DNA from: an uncultured Clostridia bacterium
GTDB lineage: Bacteria > Bacillota > Clostridia > Christensenellales > CAG-314
Length of the DNA stretch: 47,439 bases
Assembly (NCBI GenBank): GCA_947601445.1
Contig: CANQGD010000011.1
Location: 1 to 47,439 of the forward strand
Direction of reading: 5' to 3'
The position numbers and the translations under genes were made by a program. The stretch's first letter is position 1, and each line of letters opens with the position of its first letter. This document shows positions 9,332 to 37,582 of the stretch, piece after piece. Under the pieces are notes generated by a model, which was not told where the DNA came from, ran no database searches, and saw only the letters and a list, made by a program, of their open reading frames with translations.

Positions 9332-11107
9332 ATGTGCGGAATTTTCGGAATGACGGGCGTCGGGGCAGTGGCAGGTACGCTCAAAGCATTGAAACTGTTG
9401 GAATATCGCGGGTACGATTCGGCAGGTATCGCCGCGCGCAGAGAGGGGCGCATAGATATATGCAAGACGGAAGGGCGCGTTGCAAAACTCGAAGAACTTG
9501 TTTGTTCTCTGAAAGAAACCGATGTGGCGATCGGTCACACTCGCTGGGCAACTCACGGCGCGGTTTGTACCGCCAATGCGCACCCGTTTTTATCTCAAAA
9601 CGGCAAGTTTGCAATCGTGCACAACGGAATAATCGAAAATTATCTCGAATTGAAAAAGAAATTGGGCGACGACGTGCATTTTACGTCGCAAACGGACAGC
9701 GAAACCGCGGCTCACCTTTTGGAACGCAATTATCAGGGCAATGTACTTGACGCGGTATTGCATACCGCACGACAGCTCAAAGGTTCTTTTGCAATAGTGA
9801 TAACGACCGTTTACGACGAAAAATTGTATGCTATCAAAAGTAAAAGTCCTTTGATAGCGGGCATATCGCAAAAGGGCGCCTGCTTTTGTTCGGACATAAG
9901 ATGCGTTTCTCATTGGGCGACATCGGTTGCCGTAACTCCCGATAATACGGTGGCGGAACTATCGTCCGACGGCGTTCGTTTTTTCGATTTTTCGGGAAAT
10001 CCGCTGTCCGTTCCCTTTTTCGCGCCGGAAAAAGCCGAGGCGTACGAATCCGTCGAGGGCGACTTTATGCTGAAAGAAATCCGTGAAATCCCGGCGAGAC
10101 TGCGTATTGCCAAGGAGGGATATGTAAGAAGCGGCGGATTGCATTTGTCGGCGGAGGAGGCGCGCCGTCTCAAACGTATTTATCTCATCGGGTGCGGCAC
10201 CGCATACAACAGCGGATTGCAAGTAGCGGCGGTGGCAAGACAGTGGTTGAATTTGGATATATTCTCGGTTATCGCAAGCGAATTTATTTACGACAACTAT
10301 ATCGCGGATGGAAGAAGTCTGTTCTTCTTTATCAGTCAAAGCGGCGAAACGGCGGACACGGTGCGCGCGGCGGAACGCGTAACGAAATCGGGCGGTTTGA
10401 CTTATGCTGTAACGAATACTTCGGAGTCCTCCCTGACGTTTGTTTGCAAGCGTACGACAAATATCTATGCCGGCGCGGAATATGCCGTCGCCAGCACCAA
10501 GGCTTACAACTGTCAGTTACAGACGCTGACCTTGTTGCTGTTGGATTTGGGGCGCATGCGCGGAAGCGTTTCCGACGCTTTGTATATGGAAATTTTCGGC
10601 GGAATGAATTTTTTGCCGGAAGCAATCGGGGATATTATAGACAACAGTCGCATTTTGATAAACCTTGCGGAAACTATCAAAGATTGTTCCGCGGTGTTTT
10701 ACATAGGTCGAACGGCAGATTATCCCACGGCGTGCGAAGGCAGCCTCAAATTGAAGGAAATCAGTTATTTGCACAGCGAAGCCTACCCCGCGGGAGAACT
10801 GAAACACGGCACGCTTGCGTTGATGGACCCTGCCGTGGCAGTGGTGGCAATTTCCACTTGCGACGCATTGCGTGACAAAATGGCTTCGTCCATTACCGAA
10901 GTTACGTCGCGCGGCGCACGCGTTATAAGTGTGTCTCCCGATGTGTTTACGGACGCCACACCCGTCATTTTGCCCAAAATTCACCCCGCGCTTGCGGGAA
11001 TAGTGTCCGTCGTGCCGTTGCAACTGCTTGCCTATTACGTGGCAAAAGCGTTGGGGCGCGACGTGGACAAACCTCGCAATTTGGCAAAGTCGGTCACGGT
11101 GGAATAG
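9332..11107 (+). CDS. glmS: Glutamine--fructose-6-phosphate aminotransferase
   Basis: 591 residues. GlmS makes glucosamine-6-phosphate from fructose-6-phosphate and glutamine, the entry step to peptidoglycan amino sugars. The N-terminal class II glutaminase domain begins MCGIFG with nucleophile Cys2 and shows EYRGYDSAG, GHTRWATHG and NGIIEN. Two SIS sugar-isomerase domains follow, with GCGTAYNSG, SQSGETADT, STKAY and the conserved end LAKSVTVE. Some normally conserved positions differ (EFIYDNY where EFRYR is usual), as in divergent Clostridia. ATG 9332 is preceded by AAGGAG with a 5-base gap. The gene is monocistronic. Cell-wall genes murF-like, ddl and murG lie far downstream. Confidence 0.95.
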   Translation: MCGIFGMTGVGAVAGTLKALKLLEYRGYDSAGIAARREGRIDICKTEGRVAKLEELVCSLKETDVAIGHTRWATHGAVCTANAHPFLSQNGKFAIVHNGIIENYLELKKKLGDDVHFTSQTDSETAAHLLERNYQGNVLDAVLHTARQLKGSFAIVITTVYDEKLYAIKSKSPLIAGISQKGACFCSDIRCVSHWATSVAVTPDNTVAELSSDGVRFFDFSGNPLSVPFFAPEKAEAYESVEGDFMLKEIREIPARLRIAKEGYVRSGGLHLSAEEARRLKRIYLIGCGTAYNSGLQVAAVARQWLNLDIFSVIASEFIYDNYIADGRSLFFFISQSGETADTVRAAERVTKSGGLTYAVTNTSESSLTFVCKRTTNIYAGAEYAVASTKAYNCQLQTLTLLLLDLGRMRGSVSDALYMEIFGGMNFLPEAIGDIIDNSRILINLAETIKDCSAVFYIGRTADYPTACEGSLKLKEISYLHSEAYPAGELKHGTLALMDPAVAVVAISTCDALRDKMASSITEVTSRGARVISVSPDVFTDATPVILPKIHPALAGIVSVVPLQLLAYYVAKALGRDVDKPRNLAKSVTVE

Positions 11108-11139: not shown

Positions 11140-11168
11140 TTGACAAAAAACGGCAAATATAGTAATAT
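11140..11168 (+). promoter_or_regulatory. Strong promoter for a candidate small RNA
   Basis: TTGACA at 11140-11145, 17-bp spacer, TAATAT at 11163-11168. The nearest long ORF is more than 400 bases downstream, beyond a terminator, so the promoter most likely drives a non-coding transcript. Confidence 0.75.
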
Positions 11169-11174
11169 TTAATC

Positions 11175-11377
11175 AACAAACGCAACATAGCACAAAGCGA
11201 AGGTTTACGGGAGCATAATTTCGGTGATGGAACTCAAACACAAACCTACCGACAACCAAAGTAACTATTTGCAGACGTCAGTTTTGACGCGCTTTTGTGC
11301 GCATAACTTTGTTGCGTCGGAAAATATTTTGTGACATTTCGGCAAGCATCTATTTTGAGATGCTTGCTTTTCTTTTT
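11175..11377 (+). ncRNA. Candidate structured small RNA, about 200 nt, unidentified
   Basis: The interval is bounded by a consensus promoter and an intrinsic terminator. Its ends pair: ACGCAACA (11180-11187) with TGTTGCGT (11310-11317), then, across an asymmetric internal loop, GCACAAAGCG (11190-11199) with CGCTTTTGTGC (11290-11300, one bulge). Inside, AGGTTT (11201-11206) can pair with AAACCT (11242-11247) and TCGGT (11221-11225) with ACCGA (11248-11252), which together would form a pseudoknot or alternative stems; CGTCA/TGACG (11276-11289) forms a small hairpin. It is not tmRNA, SRP RNA or RNase P by motif. A 6S-like or raiA-like RNA cannot be excluded. A 35-codon ORF (ATG 11227) lies inside but has poor start signals. 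Confidence 0.65.
11342..11377 (+). terminator. Intrinsic terminator of the candidate small RNA
   Basis: A perfect ten-pair stem GCAAGCATCT / AGATGCTTGC with a six-base loop, followed by TTTTCTTTTT. Confidence 0.9.
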
Positions 11378-11490: not shown

Positions 11491-11530
11491 CAATTTGGGT
11501 ATTGACTTGCCCAAATTGATATGGTAAAAT
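11491..11530 (+). promoter_or_regulatory. Operon promoter with palindromic operator over the -35 box
   Basis: TTGACT (11502-11507), 17-bp spacer, TAAAAT (11525-11530). A perfect nine-base inverted repeat, CAATTTGGG (11491-11499) and CCCAAATTG (11510-11518), straddles the -35 hexamer. A dimeric repressor bound there would block RNA polymerase. The regulator is not identified in the window. Bases 11378-11490 hold nothing else supportable. Confidence 0.8.
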
Positions 11531-37419: not shown

Positions 37420-37438
37420 AACAGTACAATACAAATTC

Positions 37439-37552
37439 TTTGGGGCGTGGTGCAATTCCACACCGATAGTGAAAGCCTATGAACGCAGTCTGTTTTGCAG
37501 ACGGCGCCGAGCGGGTGAAATTCCCGAGCCGACGGTATAGTCCGGATGAGAA
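37439..37552 (+). promoter_or_regulatory. FMN riboswitch (RFN element)
   Basis: The conserved core is readable: GGGGCGTGGTGCAATTCCAC, ACCGATAGTGAAAGCC, a variable arm, GGGTGAAATTCCCGAGCCGA, and CGACGGTATAGTCCGGATGA. This closely follows the RFN consensus that binds flavin mononucleotide. With FMN bound it favours the downstream terminator and switches ribU off. Confidence 0.95.
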
Positions 37553-37582
37553 AAGAATAAAATACTTTCTTGTATTTTTGCA

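Follow-up and report, generated by a model that had tools for sequence, protein, structure and literature searches.

A short transcription unit downstream of glmS in uncultured gut Clostridia, with a preserved reading frame and an embedded RNA hairpin

Small-protein genes that had been annotated as bacterial sRNAs (survey PMC5521070) have a short independent transcript with its own promoter and terminator, and an ORF under selection for coding. A short RNA with a small ORF is also found in the dual-function sRNAs SR1/SR1P of B. subtilis and VcdRP/VcdP of V. cholerae (29 aa). In the hisL, trpL and pyrL attenuators a short ORF contains an early hairpin followed by G-10Y-1G+1, with a terminator near or at the ORF end. 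The pause hairpins of these three leaders serve attenuation. 6S RNA (RF00013) is a transcript of about 200 nt whose ends pair.

The locus described here lies downstream of glmS on a stretch of 47,439 nucleotides (the window) from an uncultured Clostridia bacterium, and its features are listed in Table 1. It shares the short independent transcript, promoter and terminator with the small-protein genes of the survey, but is restricted to one genus, encodes a fast-changing putative peptide and carries a conserved hairpin within the ORF. With SR1/SR1P and VcdRP/VcdP, to which it was compared by description, it has in common a short RNA, a small ORF and a possible RNA-level function; a base-pairing part of the unit would be hypothetical. 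It resembles hisL, trpL and pyrL in the arrangement of ORF, hairpin and terminator and, unlike them, has no regulatory codon run, no conserved downstream operon and a separate promoter beyond the terminator; the hairpin stem of the unit itself ends at the G-10 base. The likeness to 6S RNA consists of the length and the end pairing seen in the window, whereas the 6S model matches another contig and not the unit. The unit is a real transcription unit, and a brief literature search found no earlier description of it, in agreement with the earlier note, which had called it undescribed. On present sequence evidence it would best be filed as a new, genus-restricted small-protein mini-gene with an embedded RNA hairpin.

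Table 1. Features of the glmS-linked unit and its surroundings (window coordinates).
Feature	Position	Strand	Basis or remark
glmS (glutamine-fructose-6-phosphate aminotransferase)	9332..11107	+	591-aa ORF; upstream neighbour of every copy found
Promoter TTGACA-17-TAATAT	11140..11168	+	Consensus scan; aligned promoter in relatives, L117 included
Long-range stem 1	ACGCAACA 11180-11187 with TGTTGCGT 11310-11317		Present in window
Long-range stem 2	GCACAAAGCG 11190-11199 with CGCTTTTGTGC 11290-11300		Present in window
Ribosome-binding region: GGGAG 11209-11213, GGTG 11223-11226; alternative GTG start 11224	11209..11226	+	Read from sequence
Small ORF MELKHKPTDNQSNYLQTSVLTRFCAHNFVASENIL, 35 codons, ATG 11227 to TGA 11332-11334	11227..11334	+	Open frame, codon usage, hairpin phase
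Hairpin H1, CGTCA GTTT TGACG, within the ORF	11276..11289	+	Compensatory changes, RNAalifold
G-nnn-UUUU-G-Y-G, fits pause consensus G-10Y-1G+1 (G 11289, U 11298, G 11299)	11289..11299	+	Alignment A1 columns 72, 81, 82
Intrinsic terminator GGCAAGCATCT-ATTTTG-AGATGCTTGCT plus T-run, 11 pairs	11341..11377	+	Conserved, covarying in relatives
Separate downstream promoter TTGACT-17-TAAAAT	11502-11530		Beyond terminator

The boundaries of the unit were confirmed by a consensus scan and by comparison with relatives. The same glmS neighbour lies upstream of the unit in 14 genomes, and in these 14 the promoter and the terminator, which flank the ORF, are kept; CAAGC is present in the unit terminator in nearly all of them. 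The genes that follow the unit differ among genomes and have separate promoter-like sites beyond the terminator. The promoter, the perfect terminator and the next operon's own promoter had all been claimed by the earlier note, and these comparisons support its view of a short unit with its own transcript, as opposed to a leader belonging to the next operon. In the window no terminator separates glmS from the unit, and the unit terminator would probably serve glmS as well. The promoter is of a type common across the genus. A special-regulon promoter was considered and rejected, as the pattern is found on many promoters of the genus and the backward pattern had only 1 match, which indicates an ordinary promoter type. 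A nearly invariant 31-nt promoter, TTGACAACATC[AT]GACAAAAATATTATAAT[TC]T, is shared by nine genomes of the genus; its copy in the window's genome is at G000:C8:49037 (L159, G000:C8:48900-50400), just upstream of an elongation factor P-like ORF.

Within the genus glmS was located in 20 of 25 genomes and the unit was found downstream of it in 14 of the 25, each time with a promoter of one kind, a frame of 28-41 codons, a terminator and a leader that varies. No unit followed glmS in L016 and none was visible in L025, and another gene stood directly downstream of glmS in L020, L022 and L024; the glmS region of L018 ends at a contig edge. The gene that takes the place of the unit in L020, L022 and L024 resembles galactokinase (GHMP kinase). 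Ten units were used to build a covariance model, which was searched against the genomes of the genus, the family and 297 genomes of the order and gave no convincing further copy in any of these; in family and order it matched only terminator-like or marginal sites. Among the matches listed, the extra ones within the genus (L116, L122-L125, L127), and also L130, were rejected, their likeness being restricted to a terminator. As far as found, the unit thus appears restricted to one genus of uncultured gut Clostridia. The named records of this genus are rabbit-gut metagenome assemblies labelled as uncultured Clostridia.

The statement of the earlier note that the region holds no credible ORF proved wrong when the relatives were aligned. 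The frame stayed open from the start codon to a point no more than 18 nt short of the terminator in all 14 units, including L006, L009, L015 and L019, for which the start codon was picked after the open frame had been seen. The other two frames (+1 and +2) were open in 11 of 28 cases, and the product of the shuffle probabilities for the real frame was 1.2e-6. The start codon is usually preceded by a ribosome-binding sequence (GGTGATTATG, AGGTGGTTATG, GGTGAGCAATG and similar in relatives), and the window's own ribosome site has poor spacing. In eight units the frame begins with [AG]TG-TCN, all four TCN serine codons being represented, and codon 4 is CAA or CAG. With dinucleotide shuffles lacking in-frame stops as the reference, codon-usage z-scores were positive in 12/12 units with a mean of 1.38; the corresponding values were 0.19 for 43 neighbouring intergenic open stretches and 2.64 for equally long glmS windows. 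Reverse-strand frames of the unit segments also reach z-scores of up to 1.4, and codon usage therefore does not decide the matter by itself. Hairpin H1 could be recognised in 11 units, and in 10 of them it lies 46, 49 or 52 nt from the start codon, always in phase 1; length changes in this part therefore come in threes. The stop codon ends at -14 to 0 relative to the terminator stem in 11/14 units, so that the ORF abuts the intrinsic terminator; it lies inside the terminator in L015 and L023, and L011 has no stop before it.

The putative peptides change fast. The window's peptide has 35 aa; those of the relatives have 28-41 aa and are 17-45% identical to it. Their N-terminal half tends to be polar, often beginning with M-S-x-Q, and the C-terminal half is more hydrophobic in most; F-C occurs near residue 23 in 9 of 13 peptides. 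Searches of the peptide gave nothing significant in Pfam and no match in NCBIfam. Mismatches at the three codon positions were 0.35/0.31/0.36 in the unit ORF and 0.33/0.21/0.58 in glmS of the same genomes. The third-position excess expected under purifying selection on amino acids was thus absent from the unit ORF when compared with glmS, and since mismatches are nearly equal over the codon positions, conservation of the amino acids is weak. An additional RNA constraint together with fast peptide change could mask a third-position excess.

RNAalifold on ten aligned units returned two helices only, H1 and the terminator. Three pairs of H1 have changed on both sides, and the loop is closed by A-U, G-C or U-A. 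Neither its pairing nor its covariation score was reached by any of 500 shuffles, and sliding the partner strand abolished the pairing. In the alignment H1 forms a complete helix in 7/10 units with 42 standard pairs, and synonymous recoding of the ten peptides gave a mean of 20.5 standard pairs and 0.17 complete helices, with the observed values reached in 0 of 5000 trials. Because recoding fails to reproduce the observed pairing, H1 goes beyond what the peptide requires; it is not a by-product of the peptide and is held at the RNA level. L011, L015 and L023, which have no clear H1, were left out of the alignment; counted over all 14 units, the share that passes is therefore smaller (a complete 5-bp helix in 7 and one of 4 bp in L117). 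The stem is kept and the loops differ between units. An alternative hairpin, H2 (alignment columns 70-74/79-83), which overlaps the bases of H1, was weaker and was rejected, its covariation score being reached by 13 of 500 shuffles.

H1 is followed by a motif that fits the pause consensus G-10Y-1G+1 quoted in PMC9291695. With the pause site placed at the Y of UUUUG-Y-G, the -10 base is the last G of the H1 stem. UUUUG together with G-10Y-1G+1 follows H1 in 6/10 aligned units, that of the window included, and the 3-nt spacing from H1 to UUUUG is kept in 7 of the 14 units. RNA polymerase probably pauses at this H1-linked motif.

The earlier note had described a structured RNA held together by long-range pairing of its ends, with two outer stems in which compensatory changes might be sought. 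Both stems are present in the window (Table 1). The region 11140-11377 folded with a z-score of -2.41, terminator included; for the unit body without the terminator the z-score was -1.02, and 50 of 300 shuffles folded equally well, which is chance level. Over 13 units the mean body z-score was only -0.89, and on this account the body has some structure but nothing striking. Pairing between the leader and the 3' part was not conserved either, with a mean duplex z-score of -0.6 in the 12 units with a leader, and the leader varies in length (about 10 nt in L014). Relatives do not keep the two stems, and no covariation supporting them was found there. By the shuffles and the duplex z-scores the long-range stems were rejected as a conserved structure, and what stands of the structured RNA is the 5-bp internal hairpin.

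The explanation that we regard as reasonably probable is a stand-alone mini-gene that is independently transcribed and encodes a small peptide, with a pause-like hairpin embedded in it. The unit boundaries, the preserved frame, the gene-like codon usage and the covarying H1 are computed results; we infer translation, pausing and the peptide as the working product. From a housekeeping-type promoter lying at the glmS end, a transcript of about 200 nt would run to the terminator, and ribosomes would start at the ATG, or at the alternative GTG, and produce a putative 35-aa peptide that changes fast among relatives. H1, which spans codons 17-21, probably pauses RNA polymerase at G-nnn-UUUU-G-Y-G, and the pause may keep polymerase and ribosome in step.

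Coexistence of an RNA-level constraint on H1 with a kept reading frame is also what a dual-function RNA would show, in which a peptide is combined with a base-pairing regulator made up of H1 and the preceding A/C-rich stretch; nucleotide identity is moreover spread over all codon positions. As the H1 loops are not conserved there is no evident seed, and we consider this reading unlikely. A leader-peptide attenuator, in which translation matters and the peptide does not, would explain the weakly conserved peptide, the pause-like H1 and the stops at or just 5' of the terminator stem. H1 would then bring polymerase and ribosome into step, and read-through would be allowed when a ribosome occupies the terminator-adjacent stop. 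Whether transcripts coming from glmS and from the unit's own promoter extend into the next operon would thus depend on translation, and the peptide would be free to drift. In E. coli a stop codon adjoining a terminator lowers termination from ~90% to <10% (PMC4824070). No conserved downstream operon dependent on read-through was found in the genomes compared; because the downstream genes vary and have separate promoters beyond the terminator, the mini-gene is the likelier reading, and we judge attenuation of a neighbour rather improbable. In Firmicutes, whose transcription and translation often run uncoupled, terminator-adjacent stops are in any case common.

The flat codon-position mismatches, the covarying H1 and the lack of a protein family would also suit a purely non-coding small RNA with an incidental ORF, as the earlier note had proposed. 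The conserved open frame and its ribosome site, the start and the codon usage contradict this proposal, and the long-range stems on which it drew are not conserved; the unit is probably not purely non-coding, and, less likely than the mini-gene as the attenuator is, this reading appears distinctly improbable. Length and end pairing are superficially like those of 6S RNA, which raises the question of a known class (6S, raiA or other) missed by Rfam. Checked as the earlier note had advised, the unit matched no Rfam family, Firmicutes RNAs included, at its cut-off; at E<=10 there were two matches only, both far below cut-off, and the RF00013 model gave no match at the unit. On these searches 6S and the other Rfam families were rejected for the unit, which, moreover, many genomes of the genus lack. 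The likely 6S RNA of the window's genome lies on another contig (G000:C32:4176-4385), where the 6S model scores 35.7 bits and stays under its cut-off of 46.4; scores of this model are weak in the genus generally. A missed known class is thus largely refuted and, in our estimate, highly improbable. The sole above-cut-off Rfam match in the window is an FMN riboswitch at 37432-37561 (+), with 101.8 bits.

At this locus a short transcript which would pass for non-coding in a single genome revealed a kept reading frame when its relatives were aligned. The unit, read as a mini-gene, is a compact case in which a reading frame and an RNA hairpin are constrained on the same bases. If H1 does time transcription against translation, the unit would offer a small model for their coupling in Clostridia.
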